Assembly (NCBI GenBank): GCA_029776995.1
Contig: JAKOTZ010000094.1
Coordinates: forward strand, 1-41,573
Direction: 5' to 3'
DNA length: 41,573 bases
Source: Candidatus Hydrogenedentota bacterium
GTDB lineage: Bacteria; Hydrogenedentota; Hydrogenedentia; Hydrogenedentales; CAITNO01
In this document: piece after piece, positions 7,425-27,545 of the stretch
Layout of the letters: each line of letters starts with the position of its first letter
How positions within the stretch are numbered: the stretch's first letter is position 1
Position numbers and translations under genes: made by a program
The notes under the pieces: model-generated
Database searches by the model: none
What the model was told of the DNA's origin: nothing
What the model saw: only the letters and a program-made list of their open reading frames with translations

Positions 7425-8726
7425 ATGAAGCATCCATCAAAACCTATCCGCTCCCGAAAACAGGAAAAGCCCGAACTGCTTGCGCCGGCGGGTCGCATCG
7501 AGACGTTTTGCGCCGCATTGGACGCGGGGGCTGATGCCGTGTATGCCGGAGCGCACGCGTTCAACGCAAGGATGCGCGCGCCTAATTTTACCATCGATGA
7601 GCTTACCCGCATGGCTGATTACGCCCACCGCAGCGGAAAAAAACTCTATCTGACTGTAAATACAATCGTTAAAGACACAGAATTAAATGCACTCAAACAG
7701 TTGCTCAGGGATATGCGCGCCATCCACCCGGATGCCTTGATCGTCCAGGATATTGACACAGCCCACCTGGCGCAGCGTATCTGCCCAAACATCCCTCTGC
7801 ACGCCTCCACGCAAATGACCATCCACAACGTGGATGGCGCGCTGGCCGCGCAAAAAATGGGATTTGCCCGGGTCATTCTGGCGCGCGAATGCACCATTGA
7901 AGAAATCCGGGAAATCCGATGTTCCTGTGAAATTGAACTAGAAACTTTCGTCCACGGCGCCATGTGCTACTCCATGTCGGGGCAATGTTTCGCCAGCGGG
8001 CTGATTCACGGTAAAAGCGCCAATCGGGGACGGTGCCTGCAACCATGCCGCAGACTTTTCCAGGGTATCCCGGAGAACGCAGGCAACCGTTCAGAATCAA
8101 ACAAGGAAGAAACGACAGATCCTTCTTCCCCTCTTTCTGATGAAAACCGGTGTTTCCCCGCATATTCCATGCGTGACCTTTGCGCTGCGCCCATTCTTGA
8201 GCGGCTGATCGCATCCGGCATCAGCTGCTTTAAAATTGAGGGGCGCATGAAGCCACCAGAGCAGGTTGCCCAGATTGTGCGCGCCTACCGGCTACTGATC
8301 GATGCCTGGCCCAAAATTACCGCGGAGGTCATGGAAGAAAGCCGCCAACTGCTGGAAACCGCCGTCGGCCGGGAACCTCATACCGGGTATTATCTCAGCA
8401 GCACCCCTCCAGTACTGGGCGCCAAAGAAACACAGTCCGGCCGGCCGGTCGGACGCAGTGAAAGCGCCGATACGCCTGGCTTTTTCCGGATATCTCCGCG
8501 GGTCCCCCTGAAAGTCGGAGACCGGCTCCGCGTACAGCTGAACCCAAACAGCCCACCTCAGGGTTTCACCATCCGCCAAATCCTTTACCAGGGCAGATCC
8601 ACTAAACGCCCGCCGGTTGGCGCCACGATAGAAGTCGCAGCGCCCTTCAATATCCCTCCGGGACGCTGGATCGTCAAGGCGTCCGACGCTGACGCAATAC
8701 CCCGCGGTTTCGCCCATCGCATCTAG
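7425..8726 (+). CDS. U32-family RNA hydroxylase/peptidase-like protein, catalytic part
   Basis: A 433-residue U32 family protein. It opens with 'PELLAPAGRIETFCAALDAGADAVYAG', shown here as positions 16-42, the standard TIM-barrel start. It has the U32 signature 'FVHGAMCYSMSGQC' followed by 'NRGRCLQPCR', supplying Cys residues that in the TrhP/RlhA branch support an Fe-S cluster used for RNA hydroxylation. 'FKIEGRMKPPEQVA' and a small beta domain after it are also typical. The family was first named as peptidases, but characterised bacterial members modify tRNA or 23S rRNA, so RNA modification is the better guess. The frame stops at TAG 8724-8726 and then continues open in the same frame, so this may be the first part of one longer protein (see findings). 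Confidence 0.88.
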   Translation: MKHPSKPIRSRKQEKPELLAPAGRIETFCAALDAGADAVYAGAHAFNARMRAPNFTIDELTRMADYAHRSGKKLYLTVNTIVKDTELNALKQLLRDMRAIHPDALIVQDIDTAHLAQRICPNIPLHASTQMTIHNVDGALAAQKMGFARVILARECTIEEIREIRCSCEIELETFVHGAMCYSMSGQCFASGLIHGKSANRGRCLQPCRRLFQGIPENAGNRSESNKEETTDPSSPLSDENRCFPAYSMRDLCAAPILERLIASGISCFKIEGRMKPPEQVAQIVRAYRLLIDAWPKITAEVMEESRQLLETAVGREPHTGYYLSSTPPVLGAKETQSGRPVGRSESADTPGFFRISPRVPLKVGDRLRVQLNPNSPPQGFTIRQILYQGRSTKRPPVGATIEVAAPFNIPPGRWIVKASDADAIPRGFAHRI

Positions 8727-8729
8727 TCC

Positions 8730-9353
8730 ATGATGGACGAAATCTTTCAAGGACCCTCAGATTCTCCATCAGCCCCCCCAGGTTCCGTTGAAAACACCGT
8801 ACCCATTTCAGACGACCTGCCATCTTCTTCTCAGCGGGAACCGCGGAGTGCTGAAGGTCAACCGTGCCGATGGATTTTCCTGTCCTCCGCAGACCAGGCG
8901 CTGCAACTTGCCGAGCATACCGCGTTCCAATCCAAATACAACAACCGGGAAAACCGCATATGCGTTCCCGTGGAGTCGGTCCAAGAGGAAGCTTTCACCC
9001 GACTTATCCGCGCAACGGAACATGGAGGGCGGCTTGGCCTGATTTTCCCCCAGTTTTATTTTGGCCTCCACGCGCGGGAATATCTGTATGAAACGCTAAA
9101 AAGAGGGCTGGCTATGGGCGTCCGGAACCTGGTAATTTCACACCCCGCCCATTTTCAGGTGGTGCGATCACTGGGCAAACGCCGGATTACGCTGCTGGCG
9201 GGCGCCGGTTTCCATTTGATGAATCGGGAGTCCATCAATCATGTGCTGGGAGAAGGTGCGCGCGTCGTTCAGGTTTCGCTGGAATGTGACCGCGAGAACT
9301 GGCAAAGCCTGGTCATGCATTTCCCGGTTGGCACCCTGGCGATAACGGTATAG
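8730..9353 (+). CDS. U32-family protein, second part (possibly a split or interrupted gene)
   Basis: A 207-residue frame starting at ATGATG only three bases after the TAG of the U32 gene and in the same reading frame. No good ribosome binding site is visible, so translation would depend on reinitiation or readthrough. The first 45 residues are a Pro/Ser-rich linker. The rest resembles the accessory C-terminal region of long U32 proteins, with a run like 'RITLLAGAGFHLMNRESI' then 'VVQVSLECDRENWQSL', which matches the usual pattern of a buried strand, Asn/Ser turn, 'S-E' strand and leucine-rich helix. It ends at a second TAG (9351-9353), just after 'GTLAITV', where relatives usually continue with a Tyr. 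It may be expressed as a truncated product. Confidence 0.6.
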   Translation: MMDEIFQGPSDSPSAPPGSVENTVPISDDLPSSSQREPRSAEGQPCRWIFLSSADQALQLAEHTAFQSKYNNRENRICVPVESVQEEAFTRLIRATEHGGRLGLIFPQFYFGLHAREYLYETLKRGLAMGVRNLVISHPAHFQVVRSLGKRRITLLAGAGFHLMNRESINHVLGEGARVVQVSLECDRENWQSLVMHFPVGTLAITV

Positions 9354-9674
9354 CATCACCCTCCCGCTTTTCAGTCGCGCGCGCCCGGACCGCGGCTGCG
9401 TGACCAGCGCATCAGCCTGACGGAACCCAGGATAACCCTGAAGGTAATCCGCCGTCAGGAAATTACATATTCCATCAGCGCGTCACCGCTGGTATTGCCG
9501 CCCCGCATAATTCCGGAAGCGGAACGGGCGCACTGGATTTACGATTTCAGCTGGGATGACTTTGGCGCAGAAGAAATCCAGAAACAGATTCACAATGCGG
9601 AAAACACCGCAGGGTCAGAAGCGTCCCATCAGTCCGGCTGGAAAAAACATCCGCTGTTCGGCACGCTGGAGTAG
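9354..9674 (+). pseudogene. C-terminal remnant of the U32 protein after an in-frame TAG
   Basis: After the TAG at 9351-9353, the same frame stays open for 106 codons to another TAG at 9672-9674. The translation looks like protein: 'FQSRAPGPRLRDQ', then beta-like strands ('RITLKVIRRQEITYSI'), 'HWIYDFSWDDFG' and a basic end 'GWKKHPLFGTLE'. No start codon with a ribosome binding site is visible, so it is either a dead tail left by a nonsense mutation or part of a readthrough product. It ends 15 bases before the convergent agmatine deiminase gene. Confidence 0.6.
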
Positions 9675-9688
9675 CGGATCCACACTCC

Positions 9689-10810
9689 TTAAATCAGCTG
9701 CTCTTCTTTGGTAAGGCAGTGAATGGTCCCCAGCCCCCACACCAGGTCCACGGCGTGGATTCCCCTCACTTCCCGATCCGGAAAACATTCCGCAATGATG
9801 CCGAGCGCAAACCGGTCCGCCGGATCGTTAAAGGTAGGAACCAGCACCGTTTCATTGGTAATTAAAAAGTTCGCGTAGCTGGCGGGAAGCCTGACGCGAT
9901 CAAAAACAACCGGTTGCGGCATGGGAAGTGAAATGATCTCCAGTTTTGCCCCATCAGGCAGTTTCACGCCTTCCAGACGTTCCCGATTTTCCTCCAGTGC
10001 GACGTAGTTGGGATCCGAAGAAGAAGCTTCCCGGCACAGCAAGACCTGATTTTGCCCGACAAAGCGGCACACGTCATCCACATGTCCGTGGGTATCGTCC
10101 CCGATTATCCCTTTGTTCAACCAGATCACCTGTCTGATCCCAAGATATTCCCGGAAACAGTCTTCGTAATCCCGCCTGGACATGCCCGGATTTCGGGTCT
10201 GCACCGCTGAATCCAGCAGACATTCTTCGGTGGCCAGCAGCACGCCCGCGCCATTCGAATCAACCGCTCCGCCTTCCAGCACAACAGGAACCCCGCGCCA
10301 TGACGCCTCCTGAAACGGCAATGCCATCTCCCGGACATATCTGCCTGCCCACTGGGCATCCCTGAGATGATTCGGATAACGGGCCCAACCATTAAACCGA
10401 AACAGTACAGCCTCCAGCCGCGGAGGAGAAGACGGGGATTCCACCACGGTCCAGAAGGGAGAAATGTCCCGCATCCAACCCCGATCCAGCGGGCATACGT
10501 CAAAAATGATCCGGTCCATTACCGCGCCAGCCCGCATCAACGCCCGGCGCGCCCGGTCCAATGCGGCAGAACTGGCCACTGCCATACGCAATAGCTGTGT
10601 TCTGGAAACCAGTCGGGCAATCTCGGCAACAGCCCAGCACGCCGCGTGATATTTTCCCGGCCAGTCCGCCGGGTTTACCGGCCAGGCCAGGTGCACACAG
10701 GACTGGGGCTCCCATTCGGCAGGCATCCGTTTTCGGGGAACACCCTGTGCCGCCGCATACGCCTGTTGACCGGCTGATTTTGGCTTCTTTTCGGACCTTA
10801 AAGGTCTCAC
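9689..10810 (-). CDS. aguA: Agmatine deiminase
   Basis: A 373-residue agmatine deiminase, which converts agmatine to N-carbamoylputrescine and ammonia. Family motifs are complete: 'MPAEWEP' near the start, 'DRGWMRDISP' (active-site Asp), 'VLEGGAVDSNG' (Glu), 'GDDTHGHVDDVCRF' (His and Asp), and near the end 'GLGTIHCLT' with the catalytic Cys (about residue 365). The chosen start is GTG at 10810. It overlaps the TGA of the amidase gene as GTGA and has GGAG at a suitable distance; a later ATG at 10726 lacks a ribosome binding site. With the amidase it completes the agmatine-to-putrescine route. No arginine decarboxylase is in the window. Confidence 0.95.
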   Translation of the reverse strand: MRPLRSEKKPKSAGQQAYAAAQGVPRKRMPAEWEPQSCVHLAWPVNPADWPGKYHAACWAVAEIARLVSRTQLLRMAVASSAALDRARRALMRAGAVMDRIIFDVCPLDRGWMRDISPFWTVVESPSSPPRLEAVLFRFNGWARYPNHLRDAQWAGRYVREMALPFQEASWRGVPVVLEGGAVDSNGAGVLLATEECLLDSAVQTRNPGMSRRDYEDCFREYLGIRQVIWLNKGIIGDDTHGHVDDVCRFVGQNQVLLCREASSSDPNYVALEENRERLEGVKLPDGAKLEIISLPMPQPVVFDRVRLPASYANFLITNETVLVPTFNDPADRFALGIIAECFPDREVRGIHAVDLVWGLGTIHCLTKEEQLI

Positions 10811-16255: not shown

Positions 16256-19200
16256 TTACGATTCAGTTAACTTGGAACCCTGCCTCCGAACAGCTCCCAG
16301 CAATAGCAGGCCCAGCGCGCCCGCTAATACCATGCCATCCCCTACGCCCGCACCTTTGTCCGCGTCGGGGGCAGGGGCGCACGCAAACAGCCCGAAGAAT
16401 TTGCGGTGCCGCACGGCGTCATTCTTGTACTCGAAGCCTTCCAGCAGTACGTCTTCGTTATTTCGGGCCGTATTCCGGACCCGCACATCCAGTTTCCCCG
16501 GATTCGGCAGGCCGCCCGACGGAAACGCGACTTCAATCTCCGTGCCGTCCTGCGCCACGCGGGTTACGGGCATCCTGGTAATGCCGAAGTAGACCTCGAC
16601 ACCCCCCTCGCTGTCAAAGTTCTCACCGCGAATCAGAACCGGGAACACGTCTTTTCCGCCCACCGGAGGATTCACGGAGAGGATTTTGGGCCGTCTCGAC
16701 GCGGATCCCGGCACCAGCGTAAAGAGATCGGACCGCGTAGCCTCTTCTCCGGTAACCGGATTCCGCACAAGCAACACAACCGGTTCACGCGGAACCTGGC
16801 CCGAGCGCGTGCTGATTTCCAGGCTGATACTCTCGTTACTGGCTCCGGTGACCGTCACATCATAACCGGACATGACCACTACGGGATTGGTGCCGAAATT
16901 CCTTCCGTATATGACCAGCGAGAACGGTTCTCCCGGAATCGTCTGGGACGGAAGAGACGTCTGTGACACCGAATCTATCACCAGGGAGTTGGGGCCTATT
17001 GCCCGGCTGCGGGCGATCAGCACACCCGACCTGCGTTTTTTAGAGGTATGCGAACGGATCCAGTTGAAACCACTGTTATCCTGCCGCACTCCGGCTTTTG
17101 CGCCATCCATGTAGTAATAAGAGGGGGGATTCCGGAAGAAGGTAATAAACCCGACTCCCCGTTCGGCCCACGGGAATTCACGGAACTTGACAAAATCATC
17201 CCGGTCTTCGCCGGGCAGGTTCGCCCAGGTATCCGGATCAGGCTCGGTGGGCGTATTGGGTCCCCATCCGACAATACCGGCCCGGAACGCGTCATTGACC
17301 TGCATCCTACTGGACGCGCGAACGACCACGAAGAAATCTGACCCGCTGTTGGCATCCGTCGCGTCACCGCCAAAATTATCGGGAATCCACTGGCGGTTCC
17401 GGGTCTGCTGCGCCCTGGGAACCGGATAATCATCGGTACCCGGGGTTGAGAAGACAAATTTGACCTGAATATTTTCCGCACTTTGGCCCGTAAACCGCGG
17501 CGGTGCGTCCAGGATCAGGGGGATATCGATATCGGGGTCAAAGAGGCCGTTCCGATTGTTGGGATTCCAGTCATTGTCACGGTAAATGGCCACCCCGCTG
17601 AGGCGCTGGTCGATATCCAGCGGCAACAGGTCTACCAGCGGATTAAAGTTGTTGGCCGGAAGATCCGGATACAGCTCTATGATGCATTCCTCAAAGAAGG
17701 TAGGATCCCGCACGATCAACCAGCGGCCGTTTCGGGGCGTTCCGCTGCGCAAAGCAAGTTCATTCGTCGAGTTGGAGATGATTTCGTAGCTTTCATACCG
17801 CTCATCCACCAGGAAATCACCGGCGTAGGCATTAACCGCCCAGTTTGCGGAGGGAACACGGAACCCATTGGTTACGCCATAACCGTCCCCGCCTGAAGCC
17901 ACCACCGTATTGCGTCCCGAGGCCATATCCAGACCCAGAACGGGCACTGCCGCTCCGGCAATATCCAGATCGGCCCGACGGTTGGTCATGTCATTTATGC
18001 GCAGCGGCACGTTCGTGACCATCATATCATGGCCGTAGAAATCCTGGACCGGGTCTTCATCCGGATTGGTTTTGATAAAGGCGGTGGCGCTGGTATTGAC
18101 CTGCGGGAAGAACTGAACTCCCGCCTTGCGCTGATTTTCCGGCCTGGTGGGCAGGGTTGCCGGAATCACCGCGCGGAACTGCTGGAACCGGGGCGCTTTT
18201 TCGGAAAGCGCAACGGAAATGAACAGGTCGTCTCCCGGCTGGAGCGTATTGGGATCCAGGGCTTTTTCATCTCCCGCACCACCGGACTGCAACACGGAGG
18301 CCACCGGCAACAGCCCTGCCAGCGTACCGGCATCACTGTTGTCTTTGGTGTTAACCTGGTCAAGAATCTGGTCCACCAGATTTCCAGAGGTATCTCCCCG
18401 CGGCACGATCCAGTTATTCCGGGGGTAGAGGGTAACTACCCACGCCCGGTCCGCATCATCCACCAGCCCATTCCCATCCATATCATCGGGAGACCCGTCG
18501 CCGTCCAGGTCCACCAGCTCCGGAACCGAGGCCCATTTGAGGCCGCTTACCGGCACGATCTGGTCCAACAGCGGAAGTGGCGTATTATCATCGGGATACC
18601 CTGACAGGTCTTCCGTGTTAAAGAATAGACCATTTCCATCCGAGTCCTCCCACAGCAACAGTCCTGACCTGAGGGAGGTATTGTCATTGGAATCCGGATC
18701 CAGCGGTTTAAGCATATCCGGAGTAAATCCCGGTCCCCAGAGCGCCACAGTAATCGAGGCCACTGCCACAGGCTGCCCGGCCGCGACGATTGGATCCGCG
18801 CTCGACGCCAGGTTAATTCCCAGTAAGGCCTCGTGGCTGCCATTGGTCTCCATTTTCTGGGTCAGCAGGCGCGCGCCGATGTCCGCGGGCCGCCACTGGC
18901 TCAACCGCGGCAGTTCACCAGGTTTCAGCTCTCTGGTCCAGTTATCATAGGAAGGCAAAACCGGCGGCTGGGGCGGACTGGGATATGCGGAAGACCTCGG
19001 CCCCACCGGCGGAACATCACCGAACTGGGTGCTGGTGTTGAAGAAAGGCGCAGTTTCAAAGGCAAACTGACCGTAACTCCTTGAATCATCCAACAACAGA
19101 GAGACTGTAAAATTACCGCCCAAATTAACGGTATCGCCGAAAAACAGCCTCCATTCGTTCACATTTGGAGCATGGCCATTCTGGAACTGCTGCTGCTCCA

Positions 19201-22200
19201 GGCCGAACGGATCAGTCCAGCGGCTGAATCCCGTCGGACCTCCCACCCCAATATTGGTATACCCGGCATAGCTGAGGTTTCTAATCTCGAGCGTGCTTAA
19301 ATTCTGGAAATTCACCAATGGGGTATAAAACAGGTCGGAACGGCTGGCATAGTTGGAATCGGTTTCATAGGTGATCACCAGGTCATGAACGTCCAACCCC
19401 ACCTTAAACGTTTTGGCGGTGTACTGATTGAATGTACGCTGCGGCCACCAGGGCTCGTTGGGCAGCCATCGGGGATCATCCTGCCACGGTGACAGGATCT
19501 GGTTACCGTACTGCAAGCCTTGTGCGGGAATCTGGCTGTCCACGAATATGCCGCCTACACCGTGCTGTTTCTGCGGATCATAGCGACGCGGCTCAATAAA
19601 CGCTTTGAAATCCGCCCCATAGGCTATGCCCGTATTATCGCCCGGCAGCAGAGAGACGTCTTTATAACCGGAATCCGTGCGGACAACAACGAAATAATCT
19701 GGGCTTTTCTCCGAAGCAATAACAAGGGAACCATGATTATCCGGAATTGCCTCAACAGTTCCCTCGGTAAAGTCTCGGGAGCTTCGATTGTCAACGTTGG
19801 CATCTTTCCTCGTCCCGCCCCACAGCCGCAGTGAAATTTTCCACCATGGATCACCGCCGCCGGGCGGGAAAGGAATGTATTCCCAAACCGGAGGCTGTTC
19901 ACCTGTGATAAATTTGGTTGCGGGCAACATGGGATAGTCGCCATTGAAAGTCAACCCGCCTTCGGGATTCGGCGTGGGCGGATCAAACAGCCCGTTATTG
20001 TTGGTATCATGCCACACCCAGATGCCGTTATAGGTCAGGTCATCGCCTTTGGCTTCTTCATCGTAAATTGGATACCCCCACGTATTGACCGTAATCCGTT
20101 TCAGCCCATTGCGGGGATCAAACCCGCCATTGCCGGGAGGCCCGTAAGGATCAGCTCCAACATCGGTCAGAATTACGTTCACTTCACGCAACTGGGCTTT
20201 ATCTTTCCAAGTATCATAGGACCGCGGCACTTCCGAATCATTGAAATGGACCGTGCTGGTTGAATGGACATTGATACCCAGAACGCTTTGCCACTGATCC
20301 AGCGATACCAGCGGCCTCAGCTGCAACAGCTCGCCGGCAACAATATCCAGCAGCTGATTCGGCGAATTCCAGCGGGGACGGGATTGTTCGTTCAGGGGCG
20401 TATACAGAAACACCGGGAAATTCCATGCATCCGCAAACAGAACACTCCGTCCTCCGGGAGTTCCATAATAGTCGTATACCGTAAAGGAGGAAGAATAGAA
20501 CGCTTCCGCTTCAAGGGTCTCCGGCGTGTCCCCGAAGAAATCGGGCGAATAGCTGTCAATCGGTTTTCCTTCCTCATCTACGGGCCGTCCACCGGTTCGG
20601 GGGTCGATCATTTCGGCGTTCAACACTTCCACACCCATGGTCAGCTGGCTGCGCCAGGTCGCGGAAGTACGCACGGCAACAATATACGATTTGCCTTCCA
20701 GGCTGTCCTCCGTGTTGGGTCCCGCGTCCACCCGGAACTGCGGATTTGCCGCCGTGCCATTGCCGATAAAGTCAAGCCTGTAGGCCACGCCAAAACGGTC
20801 CTGAACCGTCAGGATGGAACCAACCGGCGCCCCTGTGTTATCCCATGTGAACAGCAGGCGGTCAAAATACGGATCCAGCTCACCGTTCAGGGTCCGTTCA
20901 TAGGTGGCTTCCGCCTCCTCACTGGCCTTGCTCTCCAGGAACAGCCCGAACTCCAGCAGGTCGGTGGGATGAGGACCGCTTGAGTTCATGTATCCCAATT
21001 CATTGGAATCCCTGTCGTCTGCCCGAAGCAGGTAGGTCAGGGTGCGCAACACGCGCGGCGCGAAATTCTCGGGTTCTTCCCCGTAGCTCATGGTGAACCG
21101 GAACAGCGGCACCCAGTCGCTCAGCGGCAGCAGCGCTTCCTGGTCGCGCACTTTGCTTTCAAAGGTAATATCCGCCGCGGGCACGTCTGTTCCTCCTCCT
21201 CCGCCTCCACCGCCGCCCGGATCATCACATCCGATGCACTCCAACACCGTTACATACGCAGTACGCCTGAGCGTACGAACAATGGTCTCCGTTCCGCACT
21301 GGAAAGTCACCTGCAGGGTTACATCGTATATGCCCGGCGTAGTGTACTGGTGGGAAGGATTCTGCTCGGTGGAGGTGGAACCGTCCCCAAAATTCCAGAA
21401 CCAACTGACGATCTGACAGCCTTCCCCCGCGACACTGCCGTCGCTGAAGGTAACGTTCAAATTCGGCTGGGGTGTCCCCGGTGTAATGTTGCCTCTGGTA
21501 GGCGTGCCGGAGAAGTCCGCATAGGGCGTTCCCAGAATCTCGATATAATCCACTTTACGAACGGTCGTATTGACGCCATAAACACTGGTTACCGTGACCG
21601 TAACGGTGTATGTTCCTTCCGCGGCATATTGGTGAACCGGATTAAGCTCTGTGGATGTTGTGCCATCGCCGAAGTCCCAGAGCACCTGGGCTACCTGCAC
21701 CGCGCCGGTAAGCGTAAAGGCGACGTCTCCGCCAACCCGCTGTCGGGTGGGCACGCCCACGAAATCGATCTGCGGCGGAGCCAAAGATGTCACGGTAGCG
21801 CTCCGCCCCCAGATGTATGGATTGGTACGCAACCAGTTCCGCAGAGCGGCAAAATCAGCTCCCTCCTGGCTGCGGTCTACATCCTGTCGCGGTACCACCC
21901 GATGGGTCAGCTTGTCATAACCCCAGTAATACACAGGGAGCGGATTCTGGAACAGCGTGATCACGCCAAGCCCGCGATTGCCCCAGGGGAACTCGCTGAA
22001 AATATCAAACTGGTCCGGCGGAATCTGGAGAGCGCCGGAATTCAAAGCCGGCATGAAGTTATCCGGGTCAGGCTCCGTAGGCGTATTAGGTCCCCAGGAC
22101 ACAATTCCTGCCTGGAATTGGTCACCCTGCGACATACGGGTGGACGCGCGCACCACCACAAAGAAGTCAGGACCGTAGTCAGGATCCGATGGCGACAGCC

Positions 22201-25200
22201 CGATATTGTTGGGGATCCACTGGCGGTTGCGATCCTGGGTTTCATAGGCAACCGTATTCCGTCCCACCAGATTATCCGTACCGGGTTTAGCAAACGAGAA
22301 GCGGACCTGATATTCCGGCTCGCCGCCCACCGTACCGATGAAAACGGGGGGACCGTCAAGCCGCAAAGGCAGGTCAATATACTCGGTGATATTGCCATTG
22401 GCGTCCCGAACCGGCGGATCAAACACGCCGTTGCGGTTAAGCGGGTGCCAATCGTTATCCCGGTACAGCGCCACGCCGCTGAACTGTCCATTGACCGGGT
22501 CTTCCACGCTCAATGGCAGGAAGTCATTAATCAGGTCAAATTTTCCGGAGTTGCCCACATCGTAAAATTCGACCGTCAACTCCTCGAGGAAAGACGGATC
22601 TTTGACCACATACCATGGGCGGTCTCCGCGGGGCGCGCCTGCCCGAAGCTGCAACTGGCGCCCATTAACTCCGGTAATCTGGTAGGCTTCCACCCGCGCT
22701 GCCGCCAGGTCTCCCTGCGACAGGCCAATGAGATAACATCCGATGACCTGATTGGACCACCCATTGTTGTAATAGCCCGGGGCATCGGGATTGGTTCTCA
22801 CATCCGCATCCGCCACCGTGAAGTTGTTGCCAGCCGGCTGCCCGGTAGTGCCGCGGGCCACAACATTTTCCGGCCGATTGGCGGACATATCCACGCCAAG
22901 GACCGCAGCTTCGAGGCCGCCCGGCTGAATCACCGGACCGCCGGATGACTGCTGCATGGAAGACGTGGCATCCAAGACCCTGGCGTACACGTCAGCGGCC
23001 AGCATATCGTGACCGTAGAAGTCCTGGACAGCCCCTTCTTCCGGACTCCGTTTGGTCTCGGTATCCACCACGGAATAAGCGCGCGGCATAATCTGCACGC
23101 CTGCGAATACCGCATTTTCCGGGGTGCGGGAAGGCAGTTTGGCTGGTACCAGCGCCCGGAATTCCGAATGGGCCTTCATGTTTTCAGAGGGCCGAACCAC
23201 TACAAACAAGTCGTCCCCACCATTCCGGTCGCTTACACTTAACGCTTTTTCATTACCGGCCGGAAAATCAACCAGTTGCGGAGCGCGAGTCCAAAAACTC
23301 GGCCAATCCGCCAGTGTAACCGGTGACTGATCCTCCGCTTTGGTGTCATCCGTGTCGTCCAGCCGGGCATCCCTGCTGGGGATCGGCCAATTGTCCCTGG
23401 GGAAGAGCTGCACCACCCAGGCCAGATCGGACAACCCATCCCACGCTGCCTGCTGCTGCGGAGTTAATTGGGCCACGTCGTCCGGATCATCCGGATCGCC
23501 CAGGAACACCACCCCATCTCCGCTCACGTCATCAGGTTCGTAATCTCCGTTCAGGTCAACCGGCTCAGGCGCATCTTTCCATGCCAGGGTTCCAGTTTCC
23601 AGGGGAACAATACGGTCCGTGAACGCGGGCACAGGCGACAAATCGGAGAATAACGGCCCATCGAACACTCCATTCTGGTTTGAGTCCTCATACAGCAGGA
23701 CGCCGGAAGCGAACAGTTCACCGTTCGGGTCCAATGACGCCAGCTGATCCGGAGTAAATTCCGGCCCCCAGAATGCCACCGTTATTCCGCTGAGATACAA
23801 CGGCCGGGAAGCCAGCACAGCCGGATCGCTTACCCCGCACACGTTAACGCCCAGCATGGCCACGGGCATGAGCCCCGGGGTAATCCGCTGCCGCAACAGC
23901 CGGGCGGCCCATGCCTGACTGTCATTCAGCAACTTTTCAGGCGTCCAGTCTTCAAGCCGGGGATACGTTCCCTTCAAAAGGGTATCTTCCACGATCATCC
24001 AGCGGCCGCGATCCACAGCAAAGGCCTGGCCGACAGGCACGCCATAGGGATATTCCAGAACATTAGCCCCGGCATCGAGATAAGCGCCATGCCCCTTACG
24101 CAGTGTCAACAGGTTTCCATTGCTGGATTCGATGTAGTAACGCCCGCCATACCGATCCACGAGCCACTTTCCGGCGAGATTAGCCGGCAACCCGGAATCC
24201 GGATACCGCAGGTCGTTCACTTCGAAGATATAAACATCGTTTTCGTACGTCTTTTCAGCTATGGGCTGTCCGGGCACCGCGGGACCGGGCACATAGAAAG
24301 GTTGATTGTCCCCACCGTCATTTTCCAGCCAGCAGCGGCTGGTAAGCCCCCATGCCACGCATGCCGCACCATCCTGATACCCCGACCACGTGGGATACCT
24401 GGGCAGGGTTGGCTGCTGGGGCGGATTCGGGAAGAAAGTGGACCTCGGGTCACGCAACTGGGCGTCGATATTGTCCCCATACAGCGCAAAGGGCACCGTT
24501 TCAAAGGCGAACTGAATGTCCGTCAGGGAATCATAAAGCGTTGGCGCGAACGCGCTGAGATCAGAAGTGATGCCCAGGTTGTACCGGTCAAGGGTGATGC
24601 TCCGCCATTCCAGAATACCGAAGTAGTCCGTGAGATCGCTCAACAGGAACGGCGTATTGCTGATCGGCGGCAACGCGGGCACCCCCGTGTCATTCAGAAC
24701 CGGATCGATAAATGCCGGATCTGTCCAGATGCTGAGCATGGTGCGGGAATTTCCGCGCCCCATCGCGCCGTCATACCGATCTACCAGCGCCGGGAAGAAA
24801 CGCAACCACTGCTGGGAAGGCATGATGGGCGTAATTTTTCCATAGCGGTTGCTGGTACTGTAGGTCAGCACCAAGTCGTGAATTTCCACCCCGCTGCGCA
24901 TTGGCTTGGCGGTTTCCACGCCATGGAACCGTTCATTCCAGAAAGGGAAATCATATACCTCATTATTCTCGCAGGGAATAACTCCCGGAGGACATACCCG
25001 CGTCCATTCCGTATAGTCCTGCCAGAAGAGCCCGGCAAGCGGCTGTTCATTTGCTTTGGATGGATACCCTTCGGCGGTTTCTTCGATAATCTTCCTGGCT
25101 AAGGCGGTCGCCTGACTCCAGAAGAGGATTCCACCGCTCCAGTGTCCATTGTCCCGGGGATCCCAGCGGCGGGGTTCGATAAACACCCGAAAATCTGCCC

Positions 25201-27397
25201 CCAGATTTATGCCTGTCCCGTCACCTGGAAGTCCTGATACATCCGTGAATCCGCTGTCGGAACGAAAAACAACGAAATAATTCGGGAAATTCTCCACCTT
25301 GTCCAAATCGCTCTGATGCTCGGGATCCGTAGTGTAGCCGCGGGGAGTGGTTTCAGGTCCTGCCCGTCGCCGTCCACCGACCGTATATCCACCATTTGCG
25401 TTACCAATTGCGCCCAAACTTATCTGAATTTTCCACCAGGGGTCCCCTCCACCCGGCGGGAACGGTTCGTATTGCCATTCGTGATTACCATAATTGACGA
25501 GCTGTATATCGCTACCCGTAAAGCCCCGCATGGGAATCATGGGATAGTCCACAAAGGACACGCCGGTAGTTCCATTGGGCACCGGCGGATCAAAAATGCC
25601 GTTCACGTTGGTGTCGTGCCACAGCCATACTCCATTGAAAGCGTAATCTTCGCCGATCGCCGAATCTGCCCCACTTTGCTGTTTCAGCGTAAACGTTTCA
25701 AAACCGGTGCGGGGATCAAATCCGCCATTACCGGGATAGGAGTAGGGATCAGCTCCGATATCCGTAAAGACAAGGTGAACGTCCGTTGGCTGGTCGTAGC
25801 CATAGCCGCCTTTGGCATTGATGGCCAGGGCTACTGTCCAGGATTCAACCGAGAACAGTTGACGCAAATCCATCAATTCGCCGCCGACGAAATTCAATGC
25901 GGTATTGCTGATATCCCACCGCGGACGGGTAAACCCTGGAACAGGCGTGTACATCATAACTTGTTCGTTCCAGAGGTTTTTCCGCTGCCTGAAGCTGCCG
26001 CCTCCACGGGGATCGAAGATATCGAAATAACTGAGAATGGCTCCGTCCGAAATTAACGGTTCGGGAACCGGAGCAAAAAAGTTCGGGTTGTAGTTGTCTA
26101 CAAACTCACCCTGATCATTAATCGGCGCGGCAAAAAGCACCCAGTTATTGGTGCCGAAATCGTACACGTAAGGCTGCATGAGGGCCGTATCCAGCTGGTA
26201 AATCAGGCTCCTGCCCGCCGGCCACGACGCGGACAACCGCACGCAAACGACATATGAGTACCCGTCATCGGGGCCCGCTACCACCCAGTCTCTCTCGGGA
26301 ATGATAGGGGGGGTCCCCCGCTTGGGACCATTATTACTGAATCCCTGTAACTGGTCTATCTCGCCGACCGGGAACAGGGGGCTTGTGGTATCCAGCGTAA
26401 AGTTCAACCGGTAATTGGCATCATCCACCTGGTAGACTAGACCACTCGGGCCAACAACACGTCCCGCATCCGGATCAGGAGCCTGGTTAACCGGCATTTC
26501 ATAGGGCCAGCCTTTGTTGTCCCACCGGGCGAAAAGATATCTGCTGTTGGCCAGGCTGATTTCGGATGAGGAGGCTGCCCCCACCGCTATGAGGCTTCGC
26601 ACGGTGTCCGCATTGTCAGGCAGTCCCCCGGGGAATCGGAACAGCGCGAATTCCTGGAAATCCTGCTCTGTCGGAGAGGTTGTGCCGCCCTGGTTGGGAT
26701 CCGCTTTGATCGTGAAAATCAGCTTGGTCAGCGCGCGCGGCGCGGGATCCTGCTCGTTGTAACGCATGTTGAAACCGAACAGGGGCACCCAGTCTCCGGC
26801 AGGCAGCTGATACTGGTTGTCACTGATGTAGTCTTTTGCCTCGAAATCCGCAGAGGGCATAGTGAAAACCTGCATATACGCCGAAAATATCAGTTGCGGA
26901 GGCGCGCAGGTACTGAGCGTCGAGCCGTCGGCCAGCAGGGTTTCTACCTCTACCAGCACGTCATAGGCGCCGACCTGATTGGGCGCGTTACCCGAGACGG
27001 AAGGCAACGCGGCAATAATTCCCAGCGGAGCAGGGTTTACGACGATCTGATCCGGCTGGGGTTTGGGTTCAGTCGGATCCGCCAGGTAGGCTTTGTAATT
27101 CGTTACCGTGGTGGGATTGAAATACCATGCCGCCCGGTTGATCCGGAGATATTGATTGGTTCCAGCATCGCGGGCCTCAATGGAAAAAGTCAATGCGGCG
27201 CCCGGTTCAGCGGGAGAGGGACTGACATAAACTTCGTACCGAACCCCATCGCAGGTGATGGCCTTTTCATCCGCCTTGCCGCCCGTATCATCTGCGACCG
27301 CATGCCATCCGGTTAACAGCGGTATAAGTCCTGCCGCCAGGACTCCCGCGCTGTAAACCAATCTCCGCATCCACATGCCGCTTTTACCTGTATTCAC
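16256..27397 (-). CDS. Giant secreted duplicated protein with PKD and IPT/TIG-like domains
   Basis: A 3713-residue secreted protein. The GTG start at 27397 has GGGAGAG 6 bases upstream and is followed by a signal peptide; an earlier TTG at 27412 lacks this support. Two homologous halves (about residues 1-1865 and 2075-3440) share many segments, for example 'FPPGGGDPWWKI', 'GADFRVFIEPRR' against 'GADFKAFIEPRR', and 'AVQDFYGHDM' against 'PVQDFYGHDM'. Between them lie two PKD domains ('WDFGDGTTSTELNPVHQY', 'WNFGDGSTSTEQNPSHQY') and a nine-Gly linker. Each half holds three DxNxNGxFD-type loops likely to bind calcium. IPT/TIG-like domains follow (about 3475-3660), then Cys, a Gly/Asp linker, a hydrophobic segment and Arg-Arg. 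The two halves have no family I recognise. An adhesin, sheath or surface-layer role is plausible but unproven. Confidence 0.88.
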   Translation of the reverse strand: MNTGKSGMWMRRLVYSAGVLAAGLIPLLTGWHAVADDTGGKADEKAITCDGVRYEVYVSPSPAEPGAALTFSIEARDAGTNQYLRINRAAWYFNPTTVTNYKAYLADPTEPKPQPDQIVVNPAPLGIIAALPSVSGNAPNQVGAYDVLVEVETLLADGSTLSTCAPPQLIFSAYMQVFTMPSADFEAKDYISDNQYQLPAGDWVPLFGFNMRYNEQDPAPRALTKLIFTIKADPNQGGTTSPTEQDFQEFALFRFPGGLPDNADTVRSLIAVGAASSSEISLANSRYLFARWDNKGWPYEMPVNQAPDPDAGRVVGPSGLVYQVDDANYRLNFTLDTTSPLFPVGEIDQLQGFSNNGPKRGTPPIIPERDWVVAGPDDGYSYVVCVRLSASWPAGRSLIYQLDTALMQPYVYDFGTNNWVLFAAPINDQGEFVDNYNPNFFAPVPEPLISDGAILSYFDIFDPRGGGSFRQRKNLWNEQVMMYTPVPGFTRPRWDISNTALNFVGGELMDLRQLFSVESWTVALAINAKGGYGYDQPTDVHLVFTDIGADPYSYPGNGGFDPRTGFETFTLKQQSGADSAIGEDYAFNGVWLWHDTNVNGIFDPPVPNGTTGVSFVDYPMIPMRGFTGSDIQLVNYGNHEWQYEPFPPGGGDPWWKIQISLGAIGNANGGYTVGGRRRAGPETTPRGYTTDPEHQSDLDKVENFPNYFVVFRSDSGFTDVSGLPGDGTGINLGADFRVFIEPRRWDPRDNGHWSGGILFWSQATALARKIIEETAEGYPSKANEQPLAGLFWQDYTEWTRVCPPGVIPCENNEVYDFPFWNERFHGVETAKPMRSGVEIHDLVLTYSTSNRYGKITPIMPSQQWLRFFPALVDRYDGAMGRGNSRTMLSIWTDPAFIDPVLNDTGVPALPPISNTPFLLSDLTDYFGILEWRSITLDRYNLGITSDLSAFAPTLYDSLTDIQFAFETVPFALYGDNIDAQLRDPRSTFFPNPPQQPTLPRYPTWSGYQDGAACVAWGLTSRCWLENDGGDNQPFYVPGPAVPGQPIAEKTYENDVYIFEVNDLRYPDSGLPANLAGKWLVDRYGGRYYIESSNGNLLTLRKGHGAYLDAGANVLEYPYGVPVGQAFAVDRGRWMIVEDTLLKGTYPRLEDWTPEKLLNDSQAWAARLLRQRITPGLMPVAMLGVNVCGVSDPAVLASRPLYLSGITVAFWGPEFTPDQLASLDPNGELFASGVLLYEDSNQNGVFDGPLFSDLSPVPAFTDRIVPLETGTLAWKDAPEPVDLNGDYEPDDVSGDGVVFLGDPDDPDDVAQLTPQQQAAWDGLSDLAWVVQLFPRDNWPIPSRDARLDDTDDTKAEDQSPVTLADWPSFWTRAPQLVDFPAGNEKALSVSDRNGGDDLFVVVRPSENMKAHSEFRALVPAKLPSRTPENAVFAGVQIMPRAYSVVDTETKRSPEEGAVQDFYGHDMLAADVYARVLDATSSMQQSSGGPVIQPGGLEAAVLGVDMSANRPENVVARGTTGQPAGNNFTVADADVRTNPDAPGYYNNGWSNQVIGCYLIGLSQGDLAAARVEAYQITGVNGRQLQLRAGAPRGDRPWYVVKDPSFLEELTVEFYDVGNSGKFDLINDFLPLSVEDPVNGQFSGVALYRDNDWHPLNRNGVFDPPVRDANGNITEYIDLPLRLDGPPVFIGTVGGEPEYQVRFSFAKPGTDNLVGRNTVAYETQDRNRQWIPNNIGLSPSDPDYGPDFFVVVRASTRMSQGDQFQAGIVSWGPNTPTEPDPDNFMPALNSGALQIPPDQFDIFSEFPWGNRGLGVITLFQNPLPVYYWGYDKLTHRVVPRQDVDRSQEGADFAALRNWLRTNPYIWGRSATVTSLAPPQIDFVGVPTRQRVGGDVAFTLTGAVQVAQVLWDFGDGTTSTELNPVHQYAAEGTYTVTVTVTSVYGVNTTVRKVDYIEILGTPYADFSGTPTRGNITPGTPQPNLNVTFSDGSVAGEGCQIVSWFWNFGDGSTSTEQNPSHQYTTPGIYDVTLQVTFQCGTETIVRTLRRTAYVTVLECIGCDDPGGGGGGGGGTDVPAADITFESKVRDQEALLPLSDWVPLFRFTMSYGEEPENFAPRVLRTLTYLLRADDRDSNELGYMNSSGPHPTDLLEFGLFLESKASEEAEATYERTLNGELDPYFDRLLFTWDNTGAPVGSILTVQDRFGVAYRLDFIGNGTAANPQFRVDAGPNTEDSLEGKSYIVAVRTSATWRSQLTMGVEVLNAEMIDPRTGGRPVDEEGKPIDSYSPDFFGDTPETLEAEAFYSSSFTVYDYYGTPGGRSVLFADAWNFPVFLYTPLNEQSRPRWNSPNQLLDIVAGELLQLRPLVSLDQWQSVLGINVHSTSTVHFNDSEVPRSYDTWKDKAQLREVNVILTDVGADPYGPPGNGGFDPRNGLKRITVNTWGYPIYDEEAKGDDLTYNGIWVWHDTNNNGLFDPPTPNPEGGLTFNGDYPMLPATKFITGEQPPVWEYIPFPPGGGDPWWKISLRLWGGTRKDANVDNRSSRDFTEGTVEAIPDNHGSLVIASEKSPDYFVVVRTDSGYKDVSLLPGDNTGIAYGADFKAFIEPRRYDPQKQHGVGGIFVDSQIPAQGLQYGNQILSPWQDDPRWLPNEPWWPQRTFNQYTAKTFKVGLDVHDLVITYETDSNYASRSDLFYTPLVNFQNLSTLEIRNLSYAGYTNIGVGGPTGFSRWTDPFGLEQQQFQNGHAPNVNEWRLFFGDTVNLGGNFTVSLLLDDSRSYGQFAFETAPFFNTSTQFGDVPPVGPRSSAYPSPPQPPVLPSYDNWTRELKPGELPRLSQWRPADIGARLLTQKMETNGSHEALLGINLASSADPIVAAGQPVAVASITVALWGPGFTPDMLKPLDPDSNDNTSLRSGLLLWEDSDGNGLFFNTEDLSGYPDDNTPLPLLDQIVPVSGLKWASVPELVDLDGDGSPDDMDGNGLVDDADRAWVVTLYPRNNWIVPRGDTSGNLVDQILDQVNTKDNSDAGTLAGLLPVASVLQSGGAGDEKALDPNTLQPGDDLFISVALSEKAPRFQQFRAVIPATLPTRPENQRKAGVQFFPQVNTSATAFIKTNPDEDPVQDFYGHDMMVTNVPLRINDMTNRRADLDIAGAAVPVLGLDMASGRNTVVASGGDGYGVTNGFRVPSANWAVNAYAGDFLVDERYESYEIISNSTNELALRSGTPRNGRWLIVRDPTFFEECIIELYPDLPANNFNPLVDLLPLDIDQRLSGVAIYRDNDWNPNNRNGLFDPDIDIPLILDAPPRFTGQSAENIQVKFVFSTPGTDDYPVPRAQQTRNRQWIPDNFGGDATDANSGSDFFVVVRASSRMQVNDAFRAGIVGWGPNTPTEPDPDTWANLPGEDRDDFVKFREFPWAERGVGFITFFRNPPSYYYMDGAKAGVRQDNSGFNWIRSHTSKKRRSGVLIARSRAIGPNSLVIDSVSQTSLPSQTIPGEPFSLVIYGRNFGTNPVVVMSGYDVTVTGASNESISLEISTRSGQVPREPVVLLVRNPVTGEEATRSDLFTLVPGSASRRPKILSVNPPVGGKDVFPVLIRGENFDSEGGVEVYFGITRMPVTRVAQDGTEIEVAFPSGGLPNPGKLDVRVRNTARNNEDVLLEGFEYKNDAVRHRKFFGLFACAPAPDADKGAGVGDGMVLAGALGLLLLGAVRRQGSKLTES

Positions 27398-27545
27398 CGC
27401 ATGCTCTCCCAATCCGCGCGCATACCAGACGTCCGATCCGCCCGGCCTTCCGCGGGGAAGTCTTACACTTTACGCCTGTCGGTCGTTCCTGATACAGAAA
27501 GACCTCTTCATTCATGCTGAAAAATACTCTTATTCCATGTCAAGA

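Follow-up and report, generated by a model that had tools for sequence, protein, structure and literature searches.

The stretch analysed here (the window) is 41,573 nt long and comprises one entire contig of a metagenome-assembled genome of Candidatus Hydrogenedentota (3.41 Mb, 262 contigs, 97.3% complete). Between positions 7425 and 9674, it carries a reading frame for a U32-type protein. The translation of this frame contains exactly two internal stops, TAG at 8724–8726 and TAG at 9351–9353, and ends in a third TAG at 9672–9674, as an earlier note made from the sequence alone had described. Five sense codons past this terminal TAG, an in-frame TAA follows at 9690. The frame can be divided as follows:

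7425..8726, plus strand: ORF1, the U32 catalytic domain and a U32_C-like barrel, 433 residues, stopping at the first TAG (8724); Pfam PF01136, 6.5e-72
8724..8726, plus strand: first internal TAG, in a predicted linker helix past the U32_C barrel
8727..9350, plus strand: first part of the former tail, a linker rich in Pro and Ser together with the greater part of a second alpha/beta barrel (predicted); ~50% identity to the sister
9351..9353, plus strand: second internal TAG (residue 643), where a core strand of the second predicted barrel ends
9354..9674, plus strand: former C-terminal 106 residues with the motif PPAFQSRAPGP and the original gene end, TAG 9672; 63.8% identity to the sister

ORF1 is presumed to be still translated. 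Its PF01136 match (242 bits) lies above the Pfam threshold of 22.4, and its cysteines 181, 188, 204 and 208, spaced C-x6-C-x15-C-x3-C, are invariant across a 25-sequence alignment. The spacing C-x6-C-x15-C-x3/4-C has been reported for U32 [4Fe-4S] proteins (PMC6747719), and the four residues are presumed to be the cluster ligands. Elsewhere in the window, on the minus strand, an open frame of 3,718 codons occupies positions 16256–27412 and is conserved in the sister genome.

This sister is another Ca. Hydrogenedentota genome of the same genus (G001), in which the U32 gene (locus L081) forms one frame of 778 codons from stop to stop with no internal stop. The frame aligns end to end with that of the window, so the latter can be read without a frameshift, in agreement with the earlier note. 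Since the sister frame is uninterrupted and the alignment complete, the continuity of the window frame is not due to chance. The genes flanking the U32 frame are intact and collinear with those of the sister. At the sites of the internal TAGs, the sister has CAG (Gln) at 8724 and TGG (Trp) at 9351, and it uses TAA as the terminator. More distant relatives, likewise, each encode one protein of ~740–860 residues, which answers in the affirmative the question in the earlier note of whether homologues form a single protein of about 750 residues. Given these single-protein relatives and the sister codons, both internal TAGs are derived, each lying one base from its counterpart. Relatives beyond the sister have Glu or Asp at the 8724 site. 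For 9351, the predicted Tyr is present in five of the eight more distant relatives examined, but Phe (1/8) and His (2/8) also occur there, and the closest relative has Trp.

No other U32 gene was found in this genome. Within the family, a U32 domain is present in seven of 17 genomes (none was found in the other ten), which represent three of the seven genera; since only these seven genomes have one, the gene is dispensable and its loss tolerated. Both members of the genus have a shorter spacing from the U32_C barrel to the second barrel than same-family relatives, and the tail measures 316 residues in the sister vs. ~385 in other relatives of the same family.

The structure predicted for the full frame (mean pLDDT 78.9) places the last strand of the U32_C barrel at residues 415–420, a helix at 429–442 and a low-confidence linker at 445–477. 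The second alpha/beta barrel is modelled in the region of residues 482–643 before the second TAG, and its strand 638–643 ends at that TAG. In the model, the first TAG falls in the helix just past the U32_C barrel and is followed by the disordered linker and the second barrel. The best Foldseek matches by fold are the U32 peptidase MK0906 (5d88) and a U32 C-terminal domain (4he6); no solved structure matching by sequence was found. Short U32 homologues of 416–446 residues end at most ~25 residues from the point near residue 421 at which the query alignment stops, and a domain search located U32_C at the very end of one of them. The first TAG thus sits at a real module boundary, right after a complete U32 + U32_C module.

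The earlier note had considered this TAG a possible natural gene boundary. This holds for the module boundary, where short U32 proteins end, but a natural arrangement of two genes is refuted, because all close homologues are single proteins. That ORF1 and a second reading frame, restarted at the ATG at 8730 past the first TAG, now act as two functional genes is very improbable. The sequence TAG-TCC-ATG-ATG puts start codons directly 3' of the stop, the second part is predicted to be a separate domain, and translation could, in principle, resume at the ATG at 8730. However, a ribosome-binding site before 8730 is not evident, the second TAG interrupts the second barrel shortly before its end, and no stand-alone homologue of the tail was found among the loci searched.

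Amber readthrough was also raised for this frame. It would require that an internal TAG is decoded at useful efficiency, either by a suppressor tRNA that is absent from the assembly or by a near-cognate one, that full-length protein is made, and that TAGs are tolerated genome-wide. Such decoding is quite unlikely. None of the 43 tRNAs detected in this 97%-complete assembly has a CUA anticodon, all of them carrying ordinary ones, and a relaxed E-value adds no more than one poor match. A direct pattern search for CUA anticodon arms matched nothing but D arms, in two tRNA-Glu genes. PylS is absent by profile search, the best match scoring 20.8 bits against a cut-off of 178; this match adjoins a release factor 2-like match and is most likely a generic class II synthetase. 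The search for an amber suppressor tRNA or pyrrolysine machinery proposed earlier thus came back empty, and RF1 is intact in this genome. Furthermore, TAG behaves as a normal gene end: once the internal ones are removed, it terminates ~11% of genes here vs. 8.5% in the sister (p ~0.12, not significant), extra back-up stops after TAG were not found, and the spacing from TAG to the following in-frame stop shows no shortening. On the other hand, the 43 do not include tRNAs Ala-UGC, Ile-GAU or Arg-UCU, so the tRNA set is incomplete and one more tRNA could be missing.

In the tRNA-Trp(CCA) gene of this genome (L050, G000:C155:9381-9309, minus strand), a G.A mismatch tops the anticodon stem, leaving a stem of 4 bp. 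PMC13092985 links tRNAs with a 4-bp anticodon stem to UGA, not UAG, decoding.

Internal stops were surveyed in a ~1.0 Mb sample of this genome and in 0.93 Mb of the sister by seeking coding sequence on either side of a stop and then reading the cases singly; the homology scan for internal stops ran on called genes only. In the first sample, pieces continuing in frame past the stop numbered 12/34 for TAG, 18/177 for TGA and 14/98 for TAA. In the ~1.0 Mb, 10 genes are interrupted by TAG, at 12 sites in all; an internal TAA was counted once and an internal TGA twice, and at least one frameshift was noted. Besides the U32 gene, about a dozen genes of this sample have internal stops. The sister sample contains about one internal TAG. 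Apart from the U32 gene, the internal TAGs lie in the following loci:

L169, 8858-7218, G000:C198, minus strand: sodium:solute symporter interrupted by a single TAG (8633); identity otherwise 93% to the orthologue in the sister, which is intact, and 71–78% to others in the family
L191, 6287-9502, G000:C241, plus strand: RND efflux pump whose only lesions are two internal TAGs (8120, ~9221); the sister genome gave no strong match to it
L175, 17322-16510, G000:C52, minus strand: flagellin with TAG between RELAV and AANGT; a tandem paralogue has Gln at the site
L203, 17444, minus strand: protein with TAG at a site where the long clostridial homologue aligned to it has Tyr
L171, 15346: metallo-beta-lactamase-fold protein
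L170, 3265, minus strand: Gfo/Idh oxidoreductase
L167, 2208: DUF6807 protein
L185, 562: protein without family assignment
L206: Ig-like surface protein with an internal TAG (826) and an internal TGA (2848)

Codon usage with a transition bias gives a nonsense opportunity for TAG:TAA:TGA of 53:21:25. TAG accounts for 12 of the 15 internal-stop sites, compared with an expectation of ~53% (p ~0.03), or for 10 of 13 by gene (p ~0.07); these p-values are rough, because the cases were judged partly by eye and after the data had been seen. Broken genes number 13/790 here vs. 1/710 in the sister (p ~0.002, hand-curated), a difference that could stem from recent gene decay or from consensus error.

The ~10 genes with an internal TAG in an otherwise intact and conserved sequence, together with the over-representation of TAG and the near-absence of such genes in the sister, are consistent with readthrough. 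Nevertheless, TAA, TGA and frameshift lesions are present too, and the TAG sites correspond to different residues (Gln, Trp/Tyr, Tyr), as expected from one-base changes. In yeast, the in-frame stops of pseudogenes mimic reassignment, mostly via single transitions, and, according to the same paper, every stop-codon reassignment then known in bacteria concerned UGA (PMC8629427). Genome-wide recoding of TAG was rejected, since several cases proved to be normal neighbouring genes, genes are also interrupted by other stop types, and mutational opportunity favours TAG. A lineage-wide form of readthrough, in which this lineage of Hydrogenedentota reads through internal TAGs at useful efficiency, with a decoder that is near-cognate or missing from the assembly, while TAG still ends genes, is decidedly improbable. 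The readthrough option of the earlier note is not supported.

Among ordinary explanations, the chief rival to truncation is an artefact of sequencing or of strain mixing. Erroneous consensus bases, or alleles of minor strains, would then account for some or all of the internal stops in this fragmented assembly, which we regard as unlikely. The division of the genome into 262 contigs, the lone stops in highly conserved genes (the symporter mentioned above, at 93% identity, and a gene with a TGA lesion, at 94%) and the far lower number of broken genes in the sister are compatible with such errors. However, the presence of at least two lesions per gene in the U32 gene, the RND pump and L206 exceeds the expectation for scattered errors, which, moreover, should follow the opportunity ratio given above, and the last 251 kb of the survey are free of internal stops. 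We infer that both TAGs of the U32 frame are real in the organism.

The pieces of the frame still show constraint. Comparison with the sister (dS ~1.6) yields a dN/dS of 0.09 for the part preceding the first TAG, 0.31 for the part that separates the two and 0.18 for the part beyond the second. The tail evolves faster than the first module in intact relatives too, so its higher dN/dS is not by itself a sign of decay. Before the first TAG, 16 lineage-specific changes in the window stand against 22 in the sister, indicating from the alignment that the first module is under equal constraint in both lineages. In the tail after the first TAG, the numbers are 32 and 19 (p ~0.09, not significant alone), an excess that at best hints at relaxation. 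With a relaxation signal this slight at most, any loss would be recent.

The state of the frame is most likely due to ordinary recent truncation or decay and not to a special reading of TAG. It is probable that a long-form U32 gene was recently truncated by a nonsense mutation and received a second hit in its tail, TAG being an ordinary stop. Very recent decay is also the best-supported part of the earlier note, given the intact single-gene orthologues, the one-base TAGs, the lack of any other lesion and the constraint still visible. Against truncation, two nonsense changes without a frameshift are slightly unusual for a neutral pseudogene, and the internal stops of the genome lean towards TAG beyond the mutational expectation.

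The proposed course of events starts from the single-gene ancestry shown by the relatives, with one gene that encoded a long-form (RlhA-like) U32 protein. A nonsense mutation at codon 434 would recently have truncated it, and a second one would then have struck the tail, in this presumed order. With TAG terminating translation, the ribosome would make the 433-residue U32 + U32_C protein. This product, which forms a complete module and keeps the four presumed Fe-S cysteines, may retain function by analogy with short-form U32 enzymes, while the second barrel would no longer be translated and would be starting to decay. As truncation, the case is an ordinary one: a long U32 protein is cut at a module boundary to the architecture of the short forms, and genomes of the family often lack the U32 gene. 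The finding would matter much more if the modest genome-wide excess of internal TAGs reflected real readthrough.

Among known systems, the long U32 proteins of the RlhA (YdcP) type share with the ancestral form the N-terminal U32 domain, the cysteine spacing C-x6-C-x15-C-x3/4-C and a second half-protein, all in one polypeptide. The sister and family orthologues, at ~740–860 residues, are of the long form like RlhA; rRNA hydroxylation by the window protein is putative. They differ from this type in that DUF3656 (PF12392), present in a clostridial long form, had no match in the window, the sister or a same-family relative, and the window tail is cut off by a TAG. The short-form U32 proteins (TrhP/YegQ, YrrO-like; U32 + U32_C) have the same length and architecture as the 433-residue product, but the short form in the window derives from a long gene by truncation. 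ORF1 matches the NCBIfam TrhP model (NF011996) with an E-value of 2.6e-56, and its assignment as TrhP was rejected because the score of 191.3 bits lies below the curated cut-off of 534. With nonsense-mutated bacterial pseudogenes, the gene shares in-frame stops one base away from the sister codons and a recognisable remainder. It differs from them in that it has no frameshift or deletion yet, and the part before its first stop is a complete module that may still be used.
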